This document shows, one piece after another, positions 6,209 through 60,102 of a stretch of DNA of 64,000 bases. Numbering within the stretch: position 1 is the first letter of the stretch; every line of letters starts with the position of its first letter. Under the pieces are notes generated by a model. It was not told where the DNA came from. It searched no databases and saw only the letters and a list, made by a program, of their open reading frames with translations. This DNA comes from Sphingomonas sp. (lineage in GTDB: Bacteria > Pseudomonadota > Alphaproteobacteria > Sphingomonadales > Sphingomonadaceae), in assembly GCF_017304635.1 (NCBI RefSeq), contig NZ_JAFKMA010000001.1, positions 434,001 through 498,000 of the forward strand, read 5' to 3'. Made by a program: the position numbers and the translations under genes.

Positions 6209-6264
6209 CCTTGCCAAGGCCGCGGTTGCGGCGCAGTCTCTCGATCCGAACTGGGAGAGGGCAA

Positions 6265-6708
6265 ATGGCAATCGGAACAAGGCCGCCGGCATGGTTCTGG
6301 CTCGTCGCGATCATGTTGCTCGCGTGGAACGCGATGGGTGTGTGGGCGTGCATCCAGCAACTGCATTTCGGTGCCGAGTCGTGGGGGCCGCACACCACCG
6401 ACTATGACCGCCGCCTCTACGCCGCGCTGCCGGCATGGTACAATTACGTCTATATCGTCGCGACGTTCGGCGGCCTGCTCGGCGCGCTGGCGCTGTTGCT
6501 CAAGGAAAAGCGGGCGCGGTGGCTGTTCTGGCTGTCGTTCGTCGCGGTGATCGTGATGTTCGGTTATGTGTTCGGCGCGACTGATCTGATCCAGGCGAAG
6601 GGCAAGCGCGCAGCGATCGCGTTTCCGGCGATCGTCGCGGGCGTCGCGGCCTTCTCGATCTGGTTCGCGCAATATGCGACGCGCCGGGGCTGGATCGGCC
6701 GGCGCTAG
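6265..6708 (+). CDS. uncharacterised four-helix membrane protein
   Basis: This 147-residue protein has four predicted membrane helices, at about residues 10-30, 58-80, 88-106 and 120-138. The loop after helix 1 holds GAESWGPHTTDYDRRLYAAL. The ATG at 6265 has a GGGAGAGGG ribosome-binding site. I do not recognise a functional family with confidence. It converges on the HTH gene at 6705, overlapping its end by 4 bases. Confidence 0.7.
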   Translation: MAIGTRPPAWFWLVAIMLLAWNAMGVWACIQQLHFGAESWGPHTTDYDRRLYAALPAWYNYVYIVATFGGLLGALALLLKEKRARWLFWLSFVAVIVMFGYVFGATDLIQAKGKRAAIAFPAIVAGVAAFSIWFAQYATRRGWIGRR

Positions 6709-6926
6709 CTTTCCCAGCCGAATACCTCGTCGAGCGATTTGCCGAACACCTGTGCGATGCGGAACGCGGCGTCGAGGCTGGGCGAATATTTTCCCGCCTC
6801 GATCGCGGCGACGGTCTGCCGCGTCAGGCCGATCCGCTCGCCGAGCTCCGCCTGGGTCATTTCGCTGGCCAGGAAGCGGAGCAGCCGTACCTGATTGACC
6901 ACGCGGCCGGGCGGCGGCTTAGCCAT
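6705..6926 (-). CDS. XRE-family HTH regulator, short
   Basis: This 73-residue protein is almost entirely one helix-turn-helix domain: MTQAELGERIGLTRQTVAAI then EAGKYSPSLDAAFRIAQVFG, ending in LDEVFGWES. The pattern matches the short YgzD/PBSX-like repressors. Its start overlaps the end of the upstream membrane-protein gene by 8 bases, so the pair is one transcription unit. Pairs of this HTH type with a DUF2178-like membrane protein are common. It probably represses its own operon at the palindrome at 7380-7397 (inference). Confidence 0.85.
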   Translation of the reverse strand: MAKPPPGRVVNQVRLLRFLASEMTQAELGERIGLTRQTVAAIEAGKYSPSLDAAFRIAQVFGKSLDEVFGWES

Positions 6927-7347
6927 GCCGTCCGCTCCGGTAGAAAACGATCTGCGCGCCGTAATGCACGACCTCGGCGATCACGATCGCGGCCATGATG
7001 CCATACGCCATCCCGGGCGCGGTCAGTCCGAGGTGCATGCTTGCGGCGACCAGCACCACGCCGCTCAGCAGTACCGGATAAGCGATTGCCGACGATCCTC
7101 GCGCGATGGCCTTATCGCGTTCATCGCTGCCCGCGCTGGCATCCTTCGGTGCTGTCGCGGCGGTGATCACGCTGGCGACGATGATCAGGAGGACCTGAAT
7201 GACCACCGCGCCGAAGAATCCGATCATATGACCGTGGTCCGGGCCACGGCCGCTCGCGACTGCCGACAGCAGGAAGGCGAAATAGATTCCCCAGACAGCG
7301 AGCGTCGTAATGACGGATATCCAGGCGATTTTTTCCTTGAATGGCAT
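6919..7347 (-). CDS. DUF2178-like membrane protein
   Basis: This 142-residue protein has four hydrophobic helices at about residues 10-30, 42-65, 90-108 and 112-132. The cytoplasmic loop holds SAGSDERDKAIARGSSAIAY, the conserved DERD..I...S feature of DUF2178 proteins. Function is unknown. It is the first gene of the operon with the HTH regulator and has a clear promoter with an overlapping palindrome upstream. Confidence 0.75.
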   Translation of the reverse strand: MPFKEKIAWISVITTLAVWGIYFAFLLSAVASGRGPDHGHMIGFFGAVVIQVLLIIVASVITAATAPKDASAGSDERDKAIARGSSAIAYPVLLSGVVLVAASMHLGLTAPGMAYGIMAAIVIAEVVHYGAQIVFYRSGRHG

Positions 7348-7378
7348 TGCGAACCTCGTGTGTGAATTGTTAGGCTAT

Positions 7379-7406
7379 ATGTTATAAAAATTTAACATTG
7401 AGTCAA
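7379..7406 (-). promoter_or_regulatory. promoter and palindromic operator of the DUF2178/HTH operon
   Basis: On the minus strand TTGACT (complement of 7401-7406) and TAACAT (complement of 7379-7384) are separated by 16 bases. The palindrome TGTTA-N8-TAACA (7380-7397) covers the -10 and most of the spacer. A repressor bound there would block RNA polymerase, fitting autoregulation by the small HTH protein. Confidence 0.6.
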
Positions 7407-7471
7407 GTTAAACGATCATTGCCGTTGGACGGCGCTGGCGAGGGTGAGGTGGAGCAGCTAAGGGGACGCCC

Positions 7472-8344
7472 ATGTCCACGACCTTCACGATCGACACCGC
7501 GACCAGCCGCGCCAATCCGACTCCCGCGCCGATGAAGCGGCTGACCGTGCCGGCGATCCAGCGGCGCAAGGTCGAGGGCGCGATCGCCGAGCCGCTGGTG
7601 ATGCTGACCGCCTACACCGTGCGGATGGCGCAACTGCTCGATCCGCATTGCGACCTGCTGCTGGTCGGCGATTCGCTGGGGCAGGTGGTGTACGGCCTGC
7701 CGTCGACGCTGCCGGTGACGCTCGACATGATGATCGCCCACGGCGCGGCGGTGGTGCGGGGCAGCTATCATGCGGTCGTGCTCGTCGACATGCCGTTCGG
7801 CAGCTACGAGGCGTCGCCCGAGGCGGCGTTCGCGAATGCGGCGCGCATCCTGGCGGAGACCGGCTGCGCCGGCGTCAAGCTGGAGGGCGGGGCGGCGATG
7901 GCACCGACGATCCGCTTCCTGACCGAACGCGGAATCCCGGTAATGGCGCATGTCGGCCTGACCCCACAGGCGATCAACGCGCTTGGCGGCTATGGCGCGC
8001 GCGGCCGCAGCCAGGCGGAGGAGGCGAAGATCATGGCCGATGCCAAGGCCGTCGCCGATGCCGGCGCCTTCGCCTTGGTGGTCGAAGGCGTGGTCGAGCC
8101 GATCGCACGCAAGATCACCGAGGTCAGCGACGTCCCCGTCATCGGCATCGGCGCGTCGGCGGCCTGCGACGGGCAAGTGCTTGTGGCCGAGGACATGCTC
8201 GGCCTGTTCGAGCGCACGCCACGGTTCGTGAAGCGCTATGACGACATGGCGGCGCACGTCACCGGCGCGGTCGAACGCTATGCCGCCGAGGTGCGCGCGC
8301 GCACTTTCCCGGGGACGGAGCAGACCTACGCCCCCAAGTCGTAA
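7472..8344 (+). CDS. panB: 3-methyl-2-oxobutanoate hydroxymethyltransferase
   Basis: PanB converts 3-methyl-2-oxobutanoate to ketopantoate with 5,10-methylenetetrahydrofolate, the first committed step of pantothenate and CoA synthesis. The 290-residue protein has the TIM-barrel motifs [27 protein letters not shown] (metal-binding Asp), [16 protein letters not shown] and the C-terminal [15 protein letters not shown]. The N-terminal 20 residues or so are an extension ahead of the conserved core. AAGGGGA precedes the ATG. No panC lies beside it. Confidence 0.95.
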
Positions 8345-8428
8345 GGCGCGCCGTCAAGCCGCGTTGCGTTTCGGGCGCGCGCCGCTAAGAGTTCGCACCC
8401 AATCCCGCCACAATTGGAGCCCATTCCC

Positions 8429-9118
8429 TTGGCCGTGACGCCGCATACCGACGAAGCTTTCCTGCGCGAGGTCGACGAGGAACTGCGCCGCGACCAGATG
8501 GCCGACGTCTGGACGCGCTACGGCCGCCTGATCGTCGGTGCGATCATTGGCGGGCTGGCGGTTTTTGCCGCGATCCTGGGCTGGCGCTACTGGACGCACA
8601 GCCATGCCGAAGGCGAAGCGGTCAAGTTGCAGAGCGCTTATGACGCGATCGGCGCGAACAAGCCCGATCAGGCCGCGCCGATCCTGGCCGACCTCGATAG
8701 CTCGGGCGGCCCGGGCTACCGCGCGATCGCGCGGATGCTGGAGGGCAACCAGCTGCTCCAGGCCGGCAAGGCCAAGGAAGCCGCCGCCAAGTTCGCCGCC
8801 GTCGCCGGCGACGATGCGGTCGGCAAGCCGTATCGCGATCTGGCGCTGATCCGCCAGACGACGATCGAATTCGACACGCTGGCGCCGCAGACGGTGATCG
8901 ACCGGCTGCAACCGCTGGCGGGGAAGGGCTCGGCCTATCTCGGCAGCGCGGGCGAATTGGTGGCGATCTCGTACCTGAAGCAGGGCAAGCCCAACGCGGC
9001 GCGCGACCTGTTCAAGGAGATTGCCGAGGGCGAGGACGTGCCCGACACGATCCGTCAACGGGCGGTTCAGATGGTGGACGCGATTGATGTCGGCGCGACC
9101 GACCTGAAGGGCAAATGA
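8429..9118 (+). CDS. YfgM-like TPR membrane protein
   Basis: This 229-residue protein has a cytoplasmic N-terminus (EAFLREVDEELRRDQM), one membrane helix at about residues 33-52 and a periplasmic TPR_21 domain. That is the layout of YfgM, which associates with SecYEG and periplasmic chaperones. I chose a TTG start at 8429 because GGAG lies about 9 bases upstream and the protein then begins with the sequence usual for relatives; a TTG at 8414 is possible. The next gene is bamB, 4 bases on, then der, the same order as E. coli yfgM-bamB-der. Confidence 0.85.
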   Translation: MAVTPHTDEAFLREVDEELRRDQMADVWTRYGRLIVGAIIGGLAVFAAILGWRYWTHSHAEGEAVKLQSAYDAIGANKPDQAAPILADLDSSGGPGYRAIARMLEGNQLLQAGKAKEAAAKFAAVAGDDAVGKPYRDLALIRQTTIEFDTLAPQTVIDRLQPLAGKGSAYLGSAGELVAISYLKQGKPNAARDLFKEIAEGEDVPDTIRQRAVQMVDAIDVGATDLKGK

Positions 9119-9122
9119 GCTG

Positions 9123-10451
9123 ATGATGACCAAATGGAAAACGCCGGTCGCGCTCGTCGCGCTGACCGCGCTCGGCGCGTGCGGCGTGTTTAAGGGCGGT
9201 GGGCGCAAGACGCCGGTGCTCGGCGATCGCGTGCCGATCCTGGTATCGGAAACCGATGCGAAGCTTGATCCGACGATCTCCGGGTTGCAGGTGCTGTTGC
9301 CGCAGCCGCAGGTCAACGCCGACTGGGCGCAGCCGGGCGGGAGCGCCGACAAGAATCTGGGGCACGTCGCGTTGGGCGCGAACATCGGCCGTGCCTGGAC
9401 GACGGTGATCCCGGCCGGGTCGAACCGCGAGCGGCTGGCGAGCACGCCGGTGGTGGCGGGCGGCAAGCTGTACGTGGTCGACGTCAACGCGCAGCTGCAT
9501 GCCTATAGCGCGGACACCGGTGCATCCTTGTTCACCGTGCCGATCCCCAAGGGCGATCGCAGCAAGCCGGCGCGGTTCGGCGGCGGCGTCAGCATCGACG
9601 GCGGCCGCGCGTTCGCGACCGACGGCCTGGGCGACGTCGTCGCGTTCGATGCCAATACCGGCACCGAAGTGTGGCGCGCGAAGCCGGGCGGTCCGCTGCG
9701 CGGCGCGCCGAGCGTCGATGGCGATCAGCTCTATGTGCTGAGCCAGGACAACCAGCTCTATGCGCTGTCGACCACCGATGGTTCGCTCAAGTGGACGGTG
9801 TCGGGCAGCCTCGAATCGCAGGGTGTGTTCGGCGTCGCCGCACCCGCTGTCGCGCGCAGCACGATCGTCGCCGGCTTTTCGAGCGGCGAACTCAACGCCT
9901 ATCGCTACGAAAACGGCCGCAGCCTGTGGAGCGACGCCTTGTCGCGCACCAGCATGTCGACTTCGGTGTCGAGCCTGTCCGATATCGACGCCGACCCGGT
10001 GATCGACGGCACCAACGTCTATGCGCTGGGGCAGGGCGGCCGCATGGTCGCGCTCAACCTGGCGAGCGGGCAGCGCATCTGGGAACAGAATTTCGCCGGC
10101 ATCTCGACCCCGTGGCTGGCGGGCGAATGGCTGTTCGTGGTGACCGACGAGAGCAAGCTCTACTGCCTGCAACGCTCGACCGGGAAGGTGCGCTGGATCT
10201 CGCAACTGCGCGCCTTCCGCACCGAAAAGAAGAAAAAGAAGAAGAACCCGCTGACGTGGTACGGCCCGGTTCTCGCCGGCAACCGGCTGGTCCTGACCAA
10301 CTCGCTCGGACAGGTCGTCTTCGCGAACCCGGCGGACGGCTCGGTCCAGCAGACGATGGAGAACAAGGTTCCGTTCACGCTCGGCCCGATCGTCGCGAAC
10401 AACACGCTCTACACGATCGACGAACGCGGGCGCATCGCCGCGTATCGTTGA
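9123..10451 (+). CDS. bamB: outer-membrane assembly lipoprotein BamB
   Basis: This 442-residue protein begins with a lipoprotein signal (VALVALTALGACG, lipobox Cys near residue 20) followed by PQQ-like beta-propeller repeats, for example LASTPVVAGGKLYVVD, LRGAPSVDGDQLYVLS and DADPVIDGTNVYALG. BamB supports BamA-driven insertion of beta-barrel proteins into the outer membrane. A run of six lysines (RTEKKKKKKNPLTW, about residue 365) forms an unusual basic loop; the frame stays intact through it. The gene follows the YfgM-like gene and precedes der. Confidence 0.9.
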   Translation: MMTKWKTPVALVALTALGACGVFKGGGRKTPVLGDRVPILVSETDAKLDPTISGLQVLLPQPQVNADWAQPGGSADKNLGHVALGANIGRAWTTVIPAGSNRERLASTPVVAGGKLYVVDVNAQLHAYSADTGASLFTVPIPKGDRSKPARFGGGVSIDGGRAFATDGLGDVVAFDANTGTEVWRAKPGGPLRGAPSVDGDQLYVLSQDNQLYALSTTDGSLKWTVSGSLESQGVFGVAAPAVARSTIVAGFSSGELNAYRYENGRSLWSDALSRTSMSTSVSSLSDIDADPVIDGTNVYALGQGGRMVALNLASGQRIWEQNFAGISTPWLAGEWLFVVTDESKLYCLQRSTGKVRWISQLRAFRTEKKKKKKNPLTWYGPVLAGNRLVLTNSLGQVVFANPADGSVQQTMENKVPFTLGPIVANNTLYTIDERGRIAAYR

Positions 10452-10474
10452 TTTAGTCGCGGCAGCGGCTCGCG

Positions 10475-10524
10475 CCCCCGCCCGGCCTCCCATGGAATGA
10501 GCCAATTGGGAGGCCGGGCGGGGG
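10475..10524. repeat. palindromic element, family A copy 1
   Basis: Perfect 18-bp arms (10475-10492 and 10507-10524) around a 14-base loop, with weaker symmetry outside. It lies between bamB and der. Copies at 22628 and 53487 share arm sequence blocks and the exact loop length. Confidence 0.85.
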
Positions 10525-10587
10525 AGCGGGCCGGTGCCGGGCAAACGGGAACGTGACGCGCGGCGTCACCCTCGCTACAGCGACCGG

Positions 10588-11958
10588 ATGCCTTTACCTA
10601 CCGTCGCCATCATCGGCCGACCCAATGTCGGCAAGTCGACGCTGTTCAACCGCCTGATCGGCAAGCGGCTGGCGCTGGTCGACGACCAGCCCGGCGTCAC
10701 GCGGGACCGGCGCGAGGGCGACGCGCACCTGCTCGGTCTCGATTTCCGCGTGGTCGATACCGCGGGGTATGAGGACCTCGACGCCGCGACCCTGCCCGGG
10801 CGCATGCGGCAGCAGACCGAGGCCGCGGTCGCGCAAGCCGACGTGGCACTGTTCCTGATCGACGCGCGCGCGGGGATCGTCCCGCTCGACGAGGAAATCG
10901 CGCGGTGGCTGCGCGGATCGACCACGCCGGTGGTGCTGGTCGCCAACAAGGCGGAAGGGCGCGCCGCCGAGGCCGGCGTGCTCGAATCGCTGGCGCTCGG
11001 GTTCGGCGACCCGGTGCAGCTGTCGGCCGAACATGGCGAGGGCATCGCCGACCTGTTCGAGGCGCTGCTGCCGCACATTCCCGATCCCGAAGATGTAATC
11101 GAGGACGACGATGAAAGTCCCGATGCGCCGCTCAAGCTCGCGATCGTCGGGCGGCCCAACGCCGGCAAATCGACGCTCATCAACCGGATGCTCGGCGAGG
11201 ACCGGCTCATTACCGGGCCAGAGGCCGGGATCACGCGCGATTCGATCGCCGTCGACTGGATGTGGCACGACCCGAAAGAGGATCGCGACCGCGCCGTGCG
11301 CCTGATCGACACCGCCGGCATGCGCAAGCGCGCCAAGGTGCAGGACAAATTGGAGAAACTGTCGGTCGCCGACGCCTTGCGCGCGGTCGATTTCGCCGAA
11401 GTCGTCGTACTGCTGCTCGACGCGACATTGGGGTTGGAAGCGCAGGATCTGCGTATCGCCGATCGCGTATTGGAGGAAGGCCGCGCGCTGGTGATCGCGC
11501 TGAACAAATGGGACGTCGCCGAGAATGCCTCGGCGCTGTTCAACGGCGTCAAGAAGGCGCTCGAGGATGGGCTCAGCCAGGTCAAGGGCGTGACGGTGAT
11601 GACCGTATCGGCCGCGACGGGGAAGGGGATCGACCAGTTGCTCGGCGCGGCGTTCGAAACGCGCGACGCATGGTCGAAGCGGGTCGGCACCGGCGAACTC
11701 AACCGCTGGTTCGAACGCGCGGTCGAGGCCAACCCGCCGCCCGCGCCCGGCGGCAAGCGGATCAAGATGCGCTACGTCACGCAGGTCAAGACGCGCCCGC
11801 CCAGCTTCGTCATCTTCGGCACCCGTGTCGATCAGCTGCCGGCGAGCTACGAACGCTACCTCGTCAATTCGATGCGACGTGAGCTCGGCTTCGGTGCCGT
11901 GCCCGTCCGGCTGACGTTCCGCGCCCCGAAAAACCCGTTCGATCGCGAGCGTAGCTGA
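10588..11958 (+). CDS. der: ribosome-assembly GTPase Der
   Basis: This 456-residue cytoplasmic GTPase is needed for 50S subunit maturation. It has two G domains: GRPNVGKST near residue 10 with DTAGYEDL, and GRPNAGKST near residue 190 with DTAGMRKR and ALNKWD. A C-terminal KH-like domain ends in FRAPKNPF. The start at 10588 gives the normal N-terminus MPLPTVAIIGRPNVGKS; upstream in-frame codons are not conserved-looking. The length matches the family. It follows bamB after a palindromic element. Confidence 0.96.
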   Translation: MPLPTVAIIGRPNVGKSTLFNRLIGKRLALVDDQPGVTRDRREGDAHLLGLDFRVVDTAGYEDLDAATLPGRMRQQTEAAVAQADVALFLIDARAGIVPLDEEIARWLRGSTTPVVLVANKAEGRAAEAGVLESLALGFGDPVQLSAEHGEGIADLFEALLPHIPDPEDVIEDDDESPDAPLKLAIVGRPNAGKSTLINRMLGEDRLITGPEAGITRDSIAVDWMWHDPKEDRDRAVRLIDTAGMRKRAKVQDKLEKLSVADALRAVDFAEVVVLLLDATLGLEAQDLRIADRVLEEGRALVIALNKWDVAENASALFNGVKKALEDGLSQVKGVTVMTVSAATGKGIDQLLGAAFETRDAWSKRVGTGELNRWFERAVEANPPPAPGGKRIKMRYVTQVKTRPPSFVIFGTRVDQLPASYERYLVNSMRRELGFGAVPVRLTFRAPKNPFDRERS

Positions 11959-12076
11959 CGCGCCAAGTCGCGGATGCGGCACGAATATCGTCCGCCATCA
12001 ACCCGACGTTTACTCCTACCCGATATGGGTAGCGTTCGGGGAAGCGCGGATAACGCGCGATGGAGACGAGACGAAC

Positions 12077-12484
12077 ATGGGCGACGACGGTCAGCTGGTC
12101 GATTGGAGCGCGTTCCAGGCGGCGCGAAGCGAGCTCGGCGCGGGCTTCGTCCGCATACTCGGCTATTTCCGGGAGGACGGCGTCAAGTCGCTGGCGGCGA
12201 TCGAGACGGCGATGCGTGCGGGCAGCGCCGCCGCATTGGTACTGCCGGCCCATACGCTGAAGGGCGAGGCGCGGCAGTTCGGGGCGGAGCCGCTGGCGGC
12301 GCTGGCCGAAACCATCGAGCATATCGCACGGCAATGCGTGGAGACGCGCGATCGTCCCGACCAGGCGCTGGAGCATGTCGTCAAGCTGCGCCCCTGCTTC
12401 GAAGCGACGCTGACGATGCTGGAGCGCGAGGCGAATCCGCTGGTCGAGCGCCGGCCGATGGCGTTCGGCCGGCGCGCGATCTGA
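12077..12484 (+). CDS. Hpt-domain phosphotransfer protein
   Basis: This 135-residue protein is essentially one histidine-phosphotransfer domain. The phosphorylatable His lies in PAHTLKGEARQFGAEPLA (about residues 57-74), preceded by FVRILGYFREDGVKSLAAIE, the first helices of the four-helix bundle. Such proteins relay phosphate between a hybrid kinase and a response regulator; no partner gene is adjacent. In alphaproteobacteria an Hpt protein of this size could serve a global relay, but the partner cannot be told from sequence here. Confidence 0.8.
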   Translation: MGDDGQLVDWSAFQAARSELGAGFVRILGYFREDGVKSLAAIETAMRAGSAAALVLPAHTLKGEARQFGAEPLAALAETIEHIARQCVETRDRPDQALEHVVKLRPCFEATLTMLEREANPLVERRPMAFGRRAI

Positions 12485-12495
12485 TTATCCAGCGC

Positions 12496-12514
12496 GACGC
12501 GGCCAAGCCGCGTC
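12496..12514 (+). terminator. hairpin after the Hpt gene
   Basis: GACGCGGC and GCCGCGTC form an 8-bp perfect stem with a 3-base loop, 12 bases past the Hpt stop codon. No T run follows, so termination is likely but not certain. A second hairpin (about 12517-12540, arms GACCCCTG and CAGGGTC) follows directly. Confidence 0.45.
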
Positions 12515-12542
12515 GTCGACCCCTGCTTTGCAGGGTCGGCCG

Positions 12543-12590
12543 GGCTGATCGGGCGATGCGAATTAGCGCCGCTAATTCGCGCGATCAGCC
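12543..12590. terminator. bidirectional hairpin at the 3' end of bfr
   Basis: GCGAATTAGC (12558-12567) pairs with GCTAATTCGC (12571-12580), and outer arms GGCTGATCG (12543-12551) and CGATCAGCC (12582-12590) extend the stem. The structure overlaps the last codons of bfr and separates it from the converging Hpt gene. Confidence 0.6.
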
Positions 12591-13067
12591 CTCGTGCTCG
12601 GCCTTCGAGTTGAGCTGGACGTAATTCTCGATCCCCATCCGCTCGATCATCTCGAACTGCCGTTCGAGCGTGTCGACATGCTCCTCCTCGCTGTCGAGGA
12701 TGCGGCGGAACAGGTCGCGGCTGACATAGTCACGCACCTGCTCGCAATGCTCGATGGCGTCGCGCAGCAGCGGCAGCGCCTCCATCTCCAGCTCGAGATC
12801 GGCCTTCAGCACTTCCTCGACCGTCTCGCCGATGCGCAGGCGGCCGAGCAGCTGGAAATTGGGCAGGCCGTCGAGGAACAGGATGCGCTCCGACAGCCAG
12901 TCGGCATGCTTCATCTCGTCGATCGATTCCTCGCGCTCGAACTGGGCGAGCTTGTACACGCCCCAGTGGTCGAACAGCCGGTGGTGCAGCCAGTATTGGT
13001 TGATCGCGGTCAACTCGTTCTTGAGCGCCGTGTTGAGGAAATCGATAACCTTCGGATCGCCCTTCAT
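12585..13067 (-). CDS. bfr: bacterioferritin
   Basis: This 160-residue protein forms the 24-subunit iron-storage shell. The ferroxidase ligands are in place: Glu18 (KNELTAINQY), Glu51 and His54 (DEMKHAD), and later Glu and His residues (DLELEMEA, DSEEEHVDTLE). The haem ligand Met52 is present, so it is a haem-binding bacterioferritin rather than a plain ferritin. A bacterioferritin-associated ferredoxin gene lies 84 bases upstream on the same strand behind a Fur-like box, so both are probably iron-regulated. Confidence 0.96.
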   Translation of the reverse strand: MKGDPKVIDFLNTALKNELTAINQYWLHHRLFDHWGVYKLAQFEREESIDEMKHADWLSERILFLDGLPNFQLLGRLRIGETVEEVLKADLELEMEALPLLRDAIEHCEQVRDYVSRDLFRRILDSEEEHVDTLERQFEMIERMGIENYVQLNSKAEHEG

Positions 13068-13151
13068 CCGCTCACATCCTTTGCTGAGGCTGACGGCGGG
13101 ACCCTAGCGCGACGATCGCGGGGAGGACAGCCCAATACGAGGATGCGCGGT

Positions 13152-13322
13152 TCAGGCGCCGGCGCGCTCGGCGTCGATGATCGAGCGGGCGAAGGGGACG
13201 CACTGGCCGCATTTGGGCTGCATGCCGAGCGTGCGATAGGCCTGGCATGCGGTCATCGACCCGTTGCGCGCAGCCTCGCGGACTTGACGCTCGCGGATCG
13301 CATTGCAGACGCACACCATCAT
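13152..13322 (-). CDS. bfd: bacterioferritin-associated ferredoxin, 56 aa
   Basis: Reading the minus strand from 13322 gives a 56-residue protein that begins MMVCVCNAIRERQVREAA and ends ARSIIDAERAGA. It has the four cysteines of the BFD-like [2Fe-2S] fold (CxC at positions 4 and 6, and CGQC at about 38-41). Bfd reduces haem in bacterioferritin to release iron. Length and spacing match the family. The gene is short and easy to miss, lies directly upstream of bfr and has a Fur-like box 41 bases upstream. Confidence 0.92.
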   Translation of the reverse strand: MMVCVCNAIRERQVREAARNGSMTACQAYRTLGMQPKCGQCVPFARSIIDAERAGA

Positions 13323-13362
13323 GAGACCGATTATCCCTCACGCTCGTTACGATCGAGTTAGC

Positions 13363-13381
13363 GATAGTGAGAATGATTCGC
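13363..13381. promoter_or_regulatory. Fur-like box upstream of bfd-bfr
   Basis: GATAGTGAGAATGATTCGC matches 13 of 19 positions of the classic Fur box GATAATGATAATCATTATC. It lies 41 bases upstream of the bfd start, where a regulator would overlap the promoter, so iron control of bfd and bfr is likely. Whether Fur or another family member binds cannot be read from sequence. Confidence 0.6.
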
Positions 13382-13385
13382 AAGC

Positions 13386-14681
13386 CTATTGCGAGGCGTT
13401 CGCATGAATCGGGCGCCGCCGGAATCGCTGCCACCGGCCGCGTGCGGCACTCCGCCACAACCATTCGAACGGGCCGTAGGTAAAGCGATCGAGCCATGGC
13501 TTCGACCAGGCCAGCATCAGCGCCCAGATCATGGCGACCACGATCAGGCATTGCCAGCGTTCGATCCGCCCGTACCAGCCGAACCCATAGCCGTTGAACG
13601 CCGTCGTCACGACGATGCTCGTGCCGAGATAATTGGAGAACGCCATCCGCCCCGTCGCCGTCAGCCGCGCGGCCAGCCAGCGCGCGCGGCCCGATTGCAC
13701 GAACAGGATCACGATCGCCGCATAGCCGAGGCTCAGCAACGGACGGAGCAGCGTCAGCTGGATCGCATCGGTGGCGATCATCGTCATCGGCGCGAACCGC
13801 GTCCGCTCCAGCCAGGCGACCAGTGGCGCATAACCGAGCCACAGGAGCGGGATCGGCGCGGCGAGCAGCCAATAGGTGCGTCGCGACCAGGCTCCCGAAA
13901 AGAACCCCAGCCGGAACAACGCCATCCCGATCAGCATCAGCGCGATCGTGTCGGGCAGGGCGTCGATCAGGATCACCGTCTCCGCGAACAGGCTCATCGG
14001 CGCGCGCACGCGCAACGCGTCGAGCCAGGTGCCGCGATAGCCGGCGAGTTCGCTCGCCAGCATCTCCGGCGGCGGCTTGGCCTCGCGGTCGTACGCCTGC
14101 CATCGGGCGATATCGGCGGGGGCGGCGTCAGGGCGCGCGACCGCGGCCTGGAGCGCGGCGACGTTCTGGTAGGCGACTATGCCCTCGACCAGCTTGAACG
14201 CCAGCAGGGCGATGCCGATCGCGATGAGCAGACGCGGCCGCGCGCGCCACGCAAAGAACAGGGCGGCGCCGCAGAGTGCGTACAGTACCAGGATATCGCC
14301 CATCCAGATCAGGTAGGCGTGGAGCAATCCGAACAGCAGGAGCGTCGCCATGCGCGCGTAATGGACGACGACCGGCCGCTCCCCGCCGGCCATGGCGCGC
14401 TCGGCGATCAGCACGGTCGACGCGCCGAACATCATCGTGAACAGGCCGCGGAACTTGCCGTCGGCGATGACGTAGGCAAGCGCCCATTCCCACCAGTTCG
14501 CGCCGGTCGCACCGCCATAATAATTGGGGTCGAGATAGGCGTAGGACGGCATCGTCATACTGACGACGTTGAGCAGGAAGATGCCCATGACGGCGATGCC
14601 ACGCACCGCGTCGAGCGTTTGCAGACGCGGTGCCGACGCCGTGCCGGGTGTCCGAAGGCGAGCGGGTGCGGCGGCGGTCAC
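13386..14681 (-). CDS. DUF418 (YeiB-type) membrane protein
   Basis: This 431-residue inner-membrane protein opens with RLQTLDAVRGIAVMGIFLLN, the DxxRGIAxxGI signature of YeiB/DUF418 proteins. It has about ten hydrophobic helices and the conserved C-terminal segments RMAFSNYLGTSIVVTT and YGPFEWLWR. The family is uncharacterised but resembles acyltransferase-like membrane proteins. The 220 bases upstream, up to the end of purL, show no other gene. Confidence 0.88.
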   Translation of the reverse strand: MTAAAPARLRTPGTASAPRLQTLDAVRGIAVMGIFLLNVVSMTMPSYAYLDPNYYGGATGANWWEWALAYVIADGKFRGLFTMMFGASTVLIAERAMAGGERPVVVHYARMATLLLFGLLHAYLIWMGDILVLYALCGAALFFAWRARPRLLIAIGIALLAFKLVEGIVAYQNVAALQAAVARPDAAPADIARWQAYDREAKPPPEMLASELAGYRGTWLDALRVRAPMSLFAETVILIDALPDTIALMLIGMALFRLGFFSGAWSRRTYWLLAAPIPLLWLGYAPLVAWLERTRFAPMTMIATDAIQLTLLRPLLSLGYAAIVILFVQSGRARWLAARLTATGRMAFSNYLGTSIVVTTAFNGYGFGWYGRIERWQCLIVVAMIWALMLAWSKPWLDRFTYGPFEWLWRSAARGRWQRFRRRPIHANASQ

Positions 14682-14901
14682 CGACCGTCGCCCCGCATCA
14701 TGGAAAGGCGTTGCGGCCCCGATCGCTGCCCTGCCGCCCCCTCACCGATCACGATCGTTCGCCCCCAAACTTGACAAACTTGACGAGGGTAGGCCGGCCA
14801 GAACGATCCGCCCTGCTCTCGTGTGGCGGACGCGATGACCGATCGGTTCCGGTCCAGCTGCCCGCTAGCACCATCGTGAACTGTAGGACAGCAATCAGTC
14901 G

Positions 14902-17115
<2,214 letters not shown>

Positions 17116-17204
17116 GCGCGCGCGATAGCGGGGTGGGGCGCTCTCGTCACCTACCGCACGCGCCAGCAAGCGTCTGTTCAGCCGATTCATGCGTTGGCAG
17201 GCCG

Positions 17205-17966
17205 ATGATCGTCCGCTCCCCCGCCGAACGCGCGCGCGGTGCCGCCATCTCGGCGGCGCTGATGGGGGGATTGTTATGGGCGCTGATCGCCGGGCTGGCG
17301 GTGCGGCTCGGCCCGCTGCCGGTCGAGCGGCCGGGCGTGCTGATGGGCCTGACTCTGCCGCCGCCGCAACCGCCCAAGCCGCGCGAGCCGATGCACAGCG
17401 ATCGCGCGCCGAAGCGCGAGGGCGCGGCGGCCCCGCCCGCGCTGAAGGCGACCGCGACCGAAGTGACCGCGCCCAAGCCACTGCTGCCGCCACCCCCGCA
17501 GCCGATCGCGGCGGCGCCGGTCGCGAATACGGGTGCCGCTCCCACACAGGGTGCGGCGCCGGTCGCCGGTCCCGGGACTGGCGCGGGCGGCGAGGGCAAC
17601 GGCTTCGGCGCGGGCGGCGAGGGTGACGGTCCTGGCGGCGGCGGCGAAGGGCGCGACACCCCGCCGCGGCGGGTCGGCGGGCGGATCAAGCCGGGCGACC
17701 TGCCCGACGATCTCGCCTACAACCTGACCTCGGGAGTCGATCTGGTGGTGGGCGTAAAATATGCCGTCGAGGAGGACGGCCACGTCGACGAATGCCGCGT
17801 CACGCGATCGAGCGGCAATCGCGAGCTCGATACGCTCACCTGCCAGCTGATCGAGCAGAAATTCCGCTACCGCCCGGCGCTCGACGAGAATCGGCATCCG
17901 TTCAAATCGTACATCGTCGAGAACCACACTTGGAACTTCGAGGACGTGCGCGAGCGGCGGCACTGA
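17205..17966 (+). CDS. TonB-like envelope protein
   Basis: This 253-residue protein has a short cytoplasmic start, one membrane helix (about residues 15-35), then a long proline-, alanine- and glycine-rich linker including [13 protein letters not shown]-terminal domain of about 90 residues ([20 protein letters not shown]) resembles the TonB C-terminal fold. TonB links the energised inner membrane to outer-membrane receptors. ExbB and ExbD genes are not adjacent, so this may be a TonB paralogue or a structural relative. Confidence 0.75.
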
Positions 17967-18036
17967 ATCCCGGTACAGGGAACTCCGCGTGCGTAACGAT
18001 CGTTGGGGCGGCGCTTCACAGATTGGGAGATGTATC

Positions 18037-54691: not shown

Positions 54692-54970
54692 CTAGACATT
54701 CAGCCGGGCGCGCATTTCCTTGCCGGGCTTGAAATAGGGGACGCGCTTGGCGTCCACCGCGACGGTCTCGCCGGTGCGCGGGTTGCGGCCGGTACGGGCG
54801 TCGCGCGCGCGGGTGGAGAAGGCGCCGAAACCGCGCAGCTCGACTCGGCCGTCCGCCGCGAGCCGCTTGGTGATTTCGTCGAAGAAGGTGGCGACGATCG
54901 CCTCGATGTCGCGCAGCGCCAGATCGGGATTAGCGTCGGCCAGTTGCTGGATCAGGCTGGAACGGATCAT
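54692..54970 (-). CDS. ihfB: integration host factor beta subunit
   Basis: This 92-residue DNA-bending protein begins [20 protein letters not shown] and has the HU/IHF signature [20 protein letters not shown], then [20 protein letters not shown] with the intercalating Pro. The ATG at 54970 was preferred over an upstream codon. It follows rpsA on the same strand, a conserved order. Confidence 0.95.
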
Positions 54971-55078
54971 CTCTACCCCCTTCGTCCGGCAATCAGGGCG
55001 CCGGTCGCGGCTCACTCGAGGGCTGATCTAAATCAAAATCCGTCGAGGCAATAGGGCCAATCCGACACTAATGATAGG

Positions 55079-55122: not shown

Positions 55123-56746
55123 TTACTTCTTGGTTTCGCGTGCCTTGAGCGCCTCGCCCAGGATGTCGCCGAGCGACGCACCCGAGTCCGACGAACCGTA
55201 TTGCGCGACCGCCTGCTTCTCTTCGGCGATCTGCATCGCCTTGACCGAGAAGGTCGGCTTCTTCGACCGGTCGAAACCGGTCACCATCGCGTCGAACTTC
55301 TGGCCGACCTGGAACCGTTCCGGACGCTGCTCGTCGCGATCGCGACCGAGGTCGGTGCGCTTGATGAAGCCGGTCGCGCCGTCCTCGCCGACCTGCACCT
55401 CGAGGCCTGCGTCGCGGACTTCGAGCACGGTGACGGTGACGATGCTGTTCTTGTTCAGCTTCTCGCCCGATGCCGCCGCGGCGACGGCGCCCGACGGGCC
55501 ACCACGCTCGAGCTGCTTCATGCCGAGCGAGATGCGCTCCTTCTCGGCGTCGATGTCGAGCACGATCGCCTTCACGACCTCACCCTTGCGGTGCAGGTTG
55601 AGCGCGTCCTCGCCCGAAATGCCCCAGGCGATGTCCGACATGTGGACCATGCCGTCGACATCGTTGTCGAGACCGATGAACAGGCCGAACTCGGTCGCGT
55701 TCTTGACTTCGCCCTCGACGGTCGAACCGACCGGGTGCGCTGCCAAGAAGGCTTCCCACGGATTGGCCTGCGCCTGCTTCAGGCCCAGGCTAATGCGGCG
55801 CTTGTCCTCGTCGACCTCGAGCACGACGACATCGACTTCCTGCGAGGTCGAGACGATCTTGCCCGGGTGCACGTTCTTCTTGGTCCAGCTCATCTCGGAA
55901 ACGTGAACCAGGCCTTCGATACCCGGCTCGAGCTCGACGAACGCACCGTATTCGGTGATGTTGGTCACGCGGCCCGACATCTTCGCGCCGACATGATACT
56001 TGGCGGCGGCGCCGTCCCACGGATCGCTCTCGAGCTGCTTCATGCCGAGCGAGATGCGCTGCGTGTCCTTGTTGATGCGGATGATCTGGACCTTGACGGT
56101 GTCGCCGATGTTCAGGACTTCCGACGTTGACGACGCCGTCGATGATCTGGCCCTCGTGCAGGCTCTGGATCAGGCCCGACCGCTGCTCGGCGCGAGTCTC
56201 CTCGAGCACCGCGCGGCGCGACACGACGATGTTGCCGCGCTTGCGATCCATCTTCAGGATCTGGAACGGCTGCGGGATGTCCATCAGCGGCTGGACGTCG
56301 CGAACCGGACGGATGTCGACCTGCGAGCCGGGCAGGAACGCCACGGCGCCGTCGAGATCGACCGTGAAGCCGCCCTTGACGCGGCCGAAGATGACGCCGT
56401 CGACGCGGGCGCTCTGCGTGAACTCGGCCTCCAGCTTGTCCCACGCGGCTTCGCGGCGCGCGCGGTCGCGCGACAGCATCGCTTCGCCATGGACGTTCTC
56501 GACGCGGTCGACATAGACCTCGACTTCGTCACCGACCTTCAGGTCGGCCTTCTGGCCCGGCGCGGCGAACTCGCGCAGCGGCACGCGGCCCTCGGACTTC
56601 AGACCGACGTCGATGATCGCCATGTCGTTTTCGATGCCGGTGACGGTGCCATGCACCACGCGGCCTTCGAAGCCGTCGGCGTCACCCAGGGTCTGTTCGA
56701 GCAGTTTCGCGAAATCGTCGCGCGTCGGCGTAGCGGCAGAAGCCAT
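55123..56746 (-). pseudogene. rpsA: 30S ribosomal protein S1, frameshifted by an internal deletion
   Basis: The gene starts at 56746 (MASAATPTRDDFAKLLEQTL) and reads as normal S1 through domains 1 and 2 to residue 206 (GQIIDGVV). There the frame leaves S1. The S1 sequence resumes in another frame at EVLNIGD, then runs to the stop at 55123 through RISLGMKQLESDPWDG and three more S1 domains. Only four bases (AACG, 56125-56128) separate the two parts, where about 33 codons of domain 3 are expected. The loss is not a multiple of three, so no full S1 can be made. S1 binds mRNA on the 30S subunit and is essential in the species tested, so an assembly or sequencing error is likely. Confidence 0.9.
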
Positions 56747-57000: not shown

Positions 57001-59385
57001 TCAGGCGACGGCGCGCAGTTCGACGGTCGGCTTGCGATCGAGGATCGGGCGGAACACGAGCGACAGTACCATCGGCTTGTCGCCCGCCGGCGGCATCACG
57101 ATCAGGACACCGTTGGGGGCGGCATGGAACAGGTTCGGCGCGACTTCCTCCATAGCATCGACCCCGCCGCGCACCGCGATGGTCGACGCGGCGTGACCCT
57201 TCTGCAAATCGGCAAGCGACAGGTAGCCGCATTCCTCGACCTGCAACCACTCCCATTGCCGGCCGAGCTGGATCGCGATCGTCGGCCGCTGCGCTCCGAT
57301 TGGCACGCGGAGGTGATAGTAACCGTCGGTGGTCGGGAAGGCCGCGAAGTCCATCACCGTGTCGCCGTCGCTGCTCGCCAGGATGACGGGGACGTCGACC
57401 CCGCCGACTTCGAAATCGCTGGTGCGCAGGTCGAGCCGGAAGCGCGACGCGGCGAAGCTCGCCAGGCTGACCGGCAGGCCCTGCGACTGTAGCTCGGCCG
57501 ACAGGAATTGCGGCATCTGGTCGCTGTAGAACGGCAGTCCTCGTCGCCGGAGGCCGGCACGGCCGCGATCGGTGTCGACCAGCACGTCGGTGACCGCGAC
57601 CCCCATGTTGAAGTCGAAGTCGAACCGCTGGAAGACCGACACTTCCCCCGCATTGGGCAGGAACGCCAGCCGCGCCAGCACCGCCGCCGCGGCGCGGCAG
57701 CGGCTGTCGAGGTCGTCGGCCGCGGGCGGCGTCAGGATCGCGGCGCATCCTTGCCTGACATAGTCCATGCACGCCGCCTGGATGGCATCGCGAGTCGCGT
57801 TGTGCGTGGCCTTGCGATCGACCTTCTCGCGCACGGCCTCGCCCGTCGCGGTGAAGTCGATCGTCGAGCCCATCTCGACGTTGCACAACTGCTCCAGCGC
57901 GACGATCGACAGCGACAGCGCGTGCAGCGTGCGGAAATCGTAGTTGCGCAGGTCGATCATGCCGCGCTTGTCGAGCCCCGAGCGGCGCTTCTCGCGCAGG
58001 AAGACGTAACGGCCGATCACCGACACGCCCATCGCTTCGGCCAGCACCGGGGTGACCAGGTTCTGGACCGTGCCGTTATAGCCGGTGTCGACCAGCATCA
58101 CCGTGTCGCCGGGTTCGATCCCGACGCTGCGCATATGCGCGACCATACGATCGAGGAAGGCGGCGCGGCGCGCGAAAATCTTGCGCCGGATACCGGCGTC
58201 GCTGCGCACCCGTTTGGCCAGCGCGGCGCTCTGCTTCTCCTTGTCGGTCTTGGTGTCGGCCTTCAGGAAGCGGGCATATTCGTTCTCGAACAGCATGAGC
58301 TGGCGCGCGAGCGAGGCGATCGGCACCGCGCCGGTCCATTCGTCGAGGTGACGTTCGAGTGCGGCCTCGTCGGAAAGGGCGGCGCGCAGCGCGACGAAAC
58401 GACTGAGGTCGACCTTGCGGGCGCCGATCTCGGGATAGAGCTTGTCGAACACCTGGAACGGCAGATAGCCATCGCGCATCACGAACAGCGGCTTGACCGG
58501 CTTGCCCGCCGCGGCGCTGGCCGCATCGAGTTCCGCCTTCACCCAATGCGCATAGGTCGTCATCGCCGGGCCCATGACGTCGTGACCCAGTACGTAGGTC
58601 GGGTCGTCATGGCGGCGCAGCGCGACCGCCGCGCGATGCGGCTGACCGGTGGGACGCGTGATCCCGCAGGCCGGATCGAGGATTCGCGCAGTCGCATCCT
58701 CCATGCGGAGCCGCGAAGCGGTCTCGGCGTCGAACTGCTCGAGGTGCACGCCATGAATGCCGTGGGCGACCGCTCCGAGATAGTCGGCGGCATGGTTGTC
58801 GCCGAGGTGCAGCACCTTGTCGCCCGTGACGCCCAGCGTCTTCAGCACGTGCGCGAACAGTCCGTCGCACTTGCCCTCGCCATGGCTGTTCGACACGAAC
58901 ACATGGTCGATCATCGCCATGACCTCGTCGCCCGCAGCCGCGGCGATGTGCGCCCGCAACTGGGCCTCGGTCAGGTACATGTCCGACACGATCACGATGC
59001 CGAGACCCCGCCGCCTGGCCTCGCGCATCAATGCCACGGTCGGTGCGAAAGCGAAGGCATGACGGCGTTCGATCGCCAGTTCCGCCGCGACCGCGTCGGC
59101 GATGTCCGCATCGTCGGGGTCGGCCATCATCTCGCGATAGATGTCGGCGAGCCCGATCTCGCGAACCTTGCGATGGAGCCACGCGCTGCGCCGCGCCCGC
59201 GCCTCCGCCCACATTCGCGGCTCGACGCCGCCGCCCTGCGCCGGCAGTTCGGCGAACACGTCCGTCGGCGCATGCGTGTTGCGCCAGATCAGCGTGTCGA
59301 AGCAGTCGAGCGACAGGATTTCGATCCCGGCGGGCGCGTGGTCGAGCAGGGTGGCGACGTCGTAAGCGCGGATCGCGTGCAGCAT
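57001..59385 (-). CDS. large HAD-domain protein, function unknown
   Basis: This 794-residue protein has an N-terminal HAD domain (SLDCFDTLIWRN motif I, IVIVSDMYLTEAQLRAHI motif II, LHLGDNHAADYLGAVAHGIH motif IV). A long middle region follows (MRDGYLPFQVFDKLYPEIGA, VMLVDTGYNGTVQNLVTPVL), then a beta-rich C-terminal part. Relatives with SFDxFDTL motifs occur in surface-glycan clusters. It lies between cmk and rpsA, which are adjacent in many relatives, so it looks like an insertion into a conserved cluster. Confidence 0.75.
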   Translation of the reverse strand: MLHAIRAYDVATLLDHAPAGIEILSLDCFDTLIWRNTHAPTDVFAELPAQGGGVEPRMWAEARARRSAWLHRKVREIGLADIYREMMADPDDADIADAVAAELAIERRHAFAFAPTVALMREARRRGLGIVIVSDMYLTEAQLRAHIAAAAGDEVMAMIDHVFVSNSHGEGKCDGLFAHVLKTLGVTGDKVLHLGDNHAADYLGAVAHGIHGVHLEQFDAETASRLRMEDATARILDPACGITRPTGQPHRAAVALRRHDDPTYVLGHDVMGPAMTTYAHWVKAELDAASAAAGKPVKPLFVMRDGYLPFQVFDKLYPEIGARKVDLSRFVALRAALSDEAALERHLDEWTGAVPIASLARQLMLFENEYARFLKADTKTDKEKQSAALAKRVRSDAGIRRKIFARRAAFLDRMVAHMRSVGIEPGDTVMLVDTGYNGTVQNLVTPVLAEAMGVSVIGRYVFLREKRRSGLDKRGMIDLRNYDFRTLHALSLSIVALEQLCNVEMGSTIDFTATGEAVREKVDRKATHNATRDAIQAACMDYVRQGCAAILTPPAADDLDSRCRAAAAVLARLAFLPNAGEVSVFQRFDFDFNMGVAVTDVLVDTDRGRAGLRRRGLPFYSDQMPQFLSAELQSQGLPVSLASFAASRFRLDLRTSDFEVGGVDVPVILASSDGDTVMDFAAFPTTDGYYHLRVPIGAQRPTIAIQLGRQWEWLQVEECGYLSLADLQKGHAASTIAVRGGVDAMEEVAPNLFHAAPNGVLIVMPPAGDKPMVLSLVFRPILDRKPTVELRAVA

Positions 59386-59460: not shown

Positions 59461-60102
59461 TCAGTGGCCGGCGCGGGCCTTCAGCGCGACTTGCCGCTCG
59501 ACCAGTTCGATCGCGCGTTTCACTGCCGACTCGATCGACAGGAAGCTGGTGTCGAGGATGCCGGCATCCACCGCCATCACCAGCGGGGCGGCGTCGCGGC
59601 CGGTGTCGCGCAGGTCGCGCGCGCGGATGTCCGCCAGCACCTTGTCGAGGCTGATCGTCGAGCCGCGCGCCTTCAATTCGGCATGGCGGCGGCGCGCGCG
59701 AATCTGCGGCGTCGCCTTCACGAACAGCTTGGCGTCGGCGTTGGGCGCGATCACCGTGCCGATGTCGCGTCCGTCGAGCACGGCGCCGCCGGGTTGCGTC
59801 GCGAACTTGCGCTGGCGCTGGAGCAGGGCGGCGCGGACGAGCGGATGCGCGGACACGATCGACGCGCGCTGGCCGGCATCGTCGCCGCGCAGCACCGGAT
59901 CGTCGAGCAGCGCATCGTCGAAATTGCTCGCGGCGACGGCATCGGCCTCGACCGTCGGGTCGAGCTCCAGCCGACGGACATTCTCCGCCACCGCGCGATA
60001 CAGCAGGCCGGTGTCGAGGTGCGGCAGCGTGTAATGCCGGGCGAGCGCCCGGGCGACGGTGCCCTTGCCGCTGGCGGCGGGGCCGTCGACGGCGATAATC
60101 AT
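59461..60102 (-). CDS. cmk: cytidylate kinase
   Basis: Cmk phosphorylates CMP and dCMP. The 213-residue protein has the P-loop IIAVDGPAASGKGTVARALA, YRAVAENVRRL, LDGRDIGTVIAPNADAKLFV and ARARDL-like RARDLRDTGRDAAPL. The order aroA-cmk is conserved in proteobacteria. Length matches the family. Confidence 0.96.
   Translation of the reverse strand: MIIAVDGPAASGKGTVARALARHYTLPHLDTGLLYRAVAENVRRLELDPTVEADAVAASNFDDALLDDPVLRGDDAGQRASIVSAHPLVRAALLQRQRKFATQPGGAVLDGRDIGTVIAPNADAKLFVKATPQIRARRRHAELKARGSTISLDKVLADIRARDLRDTGRDAAPLVMAVDAGILDTSFLSIESAVKRAIELVERQVALKARAGH

Follow-up and report, generated by a model that had tools for sequence, protein, structure and literature searches.

Is rpsA, the gene for 30S ribosomal protein S1, truly broken in this Sphingomonas genome, or was it broken by the assembly? 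In the window (the whole stretch of 64,000 nucleotides that was analysed), rpsA lies on the minus strand, from an ATG at 56746 to a stop codon at 55123. Frame 0 encodes S1 residues 1-206, and everything from SEVLNIGD to the stop is encoded in the +1 frame. We propose that this break most likely reflects a local assembly error, with an intact rpsA in the organism itself. The features of the locus are:

54692..55015, minus strand: HU/IHF-type DNA-binding protein, the downstream neighbor of rpsA (Pfam Bac_DNA_binding); a gene of this type is likewise downstream of rpsA in G041
55123..56746, minus strand: rpsA, 30S ribosomal protein S1, broken by a gap of 92 bases with a change of frame (reading of open frames; NCBIfam NF004955 on both parts)
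55123..56124, minus strand: 3' part of rpsA in the +1 frame, with the end of domain 3 and then domains 4-6 (frame reading, Pfam S1)
55790..56128, minus strand: unrelated tail of 112 residues, in frame 0 after residue 206 (stop at 55792-55790; the product is 318 amino acids)
56126..56127, minus strand: rpsA junction, with 92 bases absent relative to 109 of 109 related loci and no microhomology (locus spacing, junction alignment)
56129..56746, minus strand: 5' part of rpsA, residues 1-206, with S1 domains 1 and 2 and the first residues of domain 3 (frame 0 translation; Pfam S1 in two stretches of residues 1-204)
57001..59385, minus strand: open reading frame of 794 amino acids that carries a HAD-hydrolase domain and separates the cmk homolog from rpsA (open reading frame list, domain match)
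59497..60102, minus strand: homolog (77% identical) of the gene that lies upstream of rpsA in G271 (sequence comparison)

An earlier note on this DNA had read residues 1-206 and the part from EVLNIGD onward as S1 in two frames, and this is confirmed by the frame reading and by NF004955, which matches both parts (1.7e-100 on 56746-56134 and 3.8e-152 on 56043-55126). The note had also claimed an internal deletion of about 33 codons in S1 domain 3. The gap is indeed there, but its size was overstated: the spacing between the two flanks is 93 bases in all 109 related loci and 1 base here, so the gap is 92 bases, or 30 and two-thirds codons. (The spacing test covered 118 loci: the 109 related loci, 7 copies from the source genome itself, and L007 and L008, which are the RNase E/G and RNase R genes of the same genome and therefore yielded no spacing.) About 31 of the some 74 residues of domain 3 are absent. 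Pfam S1 finds five near-complete domains, while the third domain is represented by model positions 44-74 only. Taken literally, the product would be 206 residues of S1 followed by the unrelated tail of 112 residues.

The junction is sharply defined. The last base on the left is 56127 and the first on the right is 56126, and when aligned to the intact rpsA of a close relative (L009), it cannot slide either way and has no microhomology. A weak direct repeat flanks the junction (33 bases, 73%), and both copies are retained, so simple slippage from one copy to the other does not account for the deletion. Given this retention and the missing microhomology, we rejected slippage between repeats as the origin of the gap. 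By eye, the sequence around the junction contains no slippery site, and a search of viral contigs found no exact copies of the junction.

Both parts of the gene are fragments of rpsA by descent. Neither reaches the curated cut-off of NF004955 (878 bits), with the two parts scored separately at 336.9 and 507.4 bits; an intact relative (P0001) scores 995.3 bits. Six S1 domains are the rule in Proteobacteria (PMC6705787), and here there are five near-complete domains and part of the third. Nor is there a single open reading frame, as the frame changes at 56127/56126. A programmed frameshift would be expected to be conserved in relatives, but the spacing in all 109 related loci is that of an uninterrupted frame.

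The neighborhood is the usual one for rpsA, except for an additional gene. The upstream homolog at 59497..60102, which we take to be cmk, and the downstream gene at 54692..55015, presumably ihfB, are the usual neighbors, and the HAD-domain frame is an extra one on the upstream side. Among the 109 related loci, whose flanks are limited, cmk was matched in 87 and ihfB in 59. For the HAD-domain frame, neither the stretch of G041 that was compared nor the short flanks of the 109 related loci gave a match.

The closest known comparisons are the six-domain Sphingomonas rpsA genes of MAG isolate SCN18_26_2_15_R5_F_65_27 (L009, from genome G041) and S. mali NBRC 15500 (L010). The first 206 residues are 99% identical to those of G041, and the second part is 96% identical to L009 and 95% identical to L010. 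Unlike both of these, the gene here has a frame change and is 92 bases short within domain 3.

The gap lies in one of the more conserved parts of the gene. We aligned 103 of the 109 related loci; six with late-starting or incomplete matches were dropped, and L061, a Sphingomonadales MAG whose rpsA match contains a stop codon at its residue 369, was kept. By consensus conservation, the missing 92-base window ranks 37th of 1628 and is at the top among the windows that overlap the gap. Ranked by identity to L009, it is 215th of 1628. For exact runs of 31, 51, and 61 bases in common with L009, the peak is at gene positions 613-618, next to the gap's left edge (620); for runs of 21 and 41 bases it is elsewhere, at 957 and 951, respectively.

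Before the gap, 30 of the codon differences to L009 are synonymous and 3 are non-synonymous; after it, the counts are 53 synonymous and 10 non-synonymous. The non-synonymous share is not above that of any of six intact relatives in the same comparison. Neither half seems to be under relaxed selection and the break does not look old, in a test that is blind to a very recent break.

How often is rpsA interrupted in other genomes of the genus? We found a match to S1 in 293 of 295 genomes, including the source genome; that S1 is full-length was established among the matches listed. We searched again in the 19 genomes whose best E-value was above 0 (the source genome is one of them) and in the 2 without a match. 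In these 21 genomes, rpsA was cut by a contig end in 13, had no match in 6, and was broken inside a contig in 2, namely the source genome and G271. The break in G271 (L201) is a short frame slip near residue 446, inside a long contig. None of the other 20 genomes with a weak or missing match has a gap like this one inside a contig. Thus, 13 drafts from the genus are likewise interrupted within rpsA, but their contigs stop there, whereas the source contig continues past the gap. The contig of G252 ends at residue 207, which is where the gap begins here, and a contig of G222 ends at residue 225. By a hand count, 2 of 17 contig ends (including putative ends in G192 and G256) fall in the 31-residue gap, versus about 1 expected, which is a weak excess.

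The source assembly has some marks of how it was made. Two pairs of its contig ends overlap by exactly 149 bases, and exact overlaps of contig ends mark de Bruijn-graph assemblies. One contig begins within a 23S rRNA gene. Together, these features are compatible with short-read graph assembly. In the graphs of mixed samples, blocks that are common to several species lead to branches. A search for 16S, as a possible sign of a MAG or an isolate, gave no match in this genome, of which part of the assembly reads as N; 5 of 14 control genomes were also silent.

The part of the assembly that was compared with a relative is otherwise clean. The junction lies in a 1.42 Mb contig, whose nearer end is about 490 kb away. 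We compared 664 kb of the source genome (of 3184 kb in all) to 656 kb of G041, in a comparison of reading frames that misses in-frame deletions. We matched 414 non-overlapping open reading frames of G041, 272 of them with an identity of at least 60% across more than 90% of their length. Just 8 of the 414 were flagged for a frame break, and rpsA was the only clear case: six of the other seven were extensions of reading frames, leaders, or adjacent intact genes, and the remaining one (o1743) looks like an antisense frame. The reverse comparison gave 15 rows for 14 reading frames, rpsA among them. With one clear break in 414 matched frames, we reject the idea that the genome is riddled with frame errors. 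The cleanness of the assembly cuts both ways. As the compared part is otherwise clean, such assembly errors are rare here; at the same time, a local error would be expected to show up as just such a single break in an essential gene.

A second rpsA, which the earlier note had asked to be sought, was not found in the readable genome, either with Pfam S1 (17 of 17 candidates scored) or with intact S1 as the query. This absence is not absolute because part of the assembly reads as N. The S1-domain genes in the readable genome are rpsA, RNase E/G, and RNase R. The missing segment, with the 92 bases of L009 as the query, had no copy among the best 40 of 64 candidates in the readable genome; the strongest of these matches was to domain 4 of the same rpsA (82%).

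If the deletion were real, its cost could be judged from E. coli. There, as described in PMC3858243, S1 without domains 5-6 is viable, S1 without domains 4-6 gives extremely slow growth, and loss of domains 3-6 is lethal. Among these alleles, the literal product here would correspond to the loss of domains 3-6. The E. coli alleles were made in the laboratory, whereas the break here is known from the sequence of one contig. A true deletion would run counter to the E. coli finding that domains 1-3 of S1 are needed for life. Our literature search turned up no paper on the essentiality of S1 in Sphingomonas and none that brings together Sphingomonas, rpsA, and a frameshift, and ribosomal proteins are not mentioned in the part of PMC10746277 that was available.

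The earlier note had offered an assembly or read error, a second copy, or an unusual S1 as explanations. That choice was well drawn, and error is the favored one. We propose that a short-read assembly dropped 92 bases where S1 domain 3 is highly conserved, with the assembly graph broken or wrongly bridged at a block that several species would share letter for letter. The living cell would then make a normal six-domain S1. The intact spacing in all 109 related loci, the conservation of the site, the contig ends of G252 and G222, the graph-type overlaps of the contigs, the unrelaxed selection, the failure to find a second rpsA in the readable genome, and the lethality of the comparable deletion in E. 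coli all favor an assembly error. Against it are the otherwise clean sequence in the compared part, the weakness of the excess of contig ends, the rank of the gap by identity to L009 (only 215th), and the distant peaks of the 21- and 41-base runs. Also, if the graph word was about 149 bases long, the junction must have been present in reads or in earlier contigs. The position of the junction mid-way in a long, otherwise clean contig would fit a real and recent inactivating deletion, either in a sub-population or in cells that keep an intact copy elsewhere, in unassembled sequence, and a second copy is conceivable in the sequence that reads as N. This seems unlikely, as no second rpsA was found in the readable genome, the junction is without microhomology, and, judging from E. 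coli (PMC3858243), a culture that had lost the gene altogether would be expected to die.

It is far less likely that the cell tolerates a variant S1, whether as domains 1-2 with the tail, as separate domains 4-6 made from an internal start, or, by +1 frameshifting, as an S1 that lacks about 31 residues of domain 3. Both parts of the gene are conserved, the ATG at 56043 does open a frame of 306 residues, and S1 proteins with fewer domains occur in some bacteria (PMC6705787). However, we saw by eye no ribosome-binding site ahead of this ATG, nor a slippery site, and no such gap recurs inside a contig in the 20 other genomes. It would be just as surprising to find a free-living alphaproteobacterium whose S1 is split or lacks a working domain 3, the parts being made separately or by +1 frameshifting and domain 3 being dispensable; a real, unusual S1 has no support outside the contig sequence itself. 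A base-calling error in homopolymers of long reads is the least probable explanation of all. Small frame slips do occur in drafts, as in G271, but the gap is 92 bases long and outside of any homopolymer, and the overlaps at contig ends point to short reads. These rankings are a matter of judgement, not calculation. If, as we believe, the break is an assembly error, then it is a matter for annotation only, where rpsA would be listed as a pseudogene or as a pair of short genes. It would also show that even a good assembly (this genome is rated 99.9% complete) can break a conserved essential gene.

We made a few other observations in this genome. The gene pnp has no match in the readable genome but is present in all 7 relatives that were tested. 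Of an 18-kb stretch around pnp in G041, the first 6.2 kb match here, followed by short pieces only (best 40 of 711 candidates). The place concerned in this genome is near 388151 of contig C3 (L273), and the unmatched part of the relative's stretch (L241) is 6212-18000, where the open reading frames beside pnp look to us like truB, rbfA, and infB. We do not read the absence of pnp as a loss because part of the assembly reads as N; pnp and its neighbors may lie in that sequence or in an assembly gap. The ends of contigs C7, C1, and C2 (L228, L229, and L230) carry similar copies of one gene, which looks like an M13-type peptidase, and the ends of C1 and C7 share exactly 149 bases. Finally, near the start of contig C6 there is a match to the ROSE-type RNA thermometer RF00435 (L225, 1351-1448), with 47.7 bits against a cut-off of 45.
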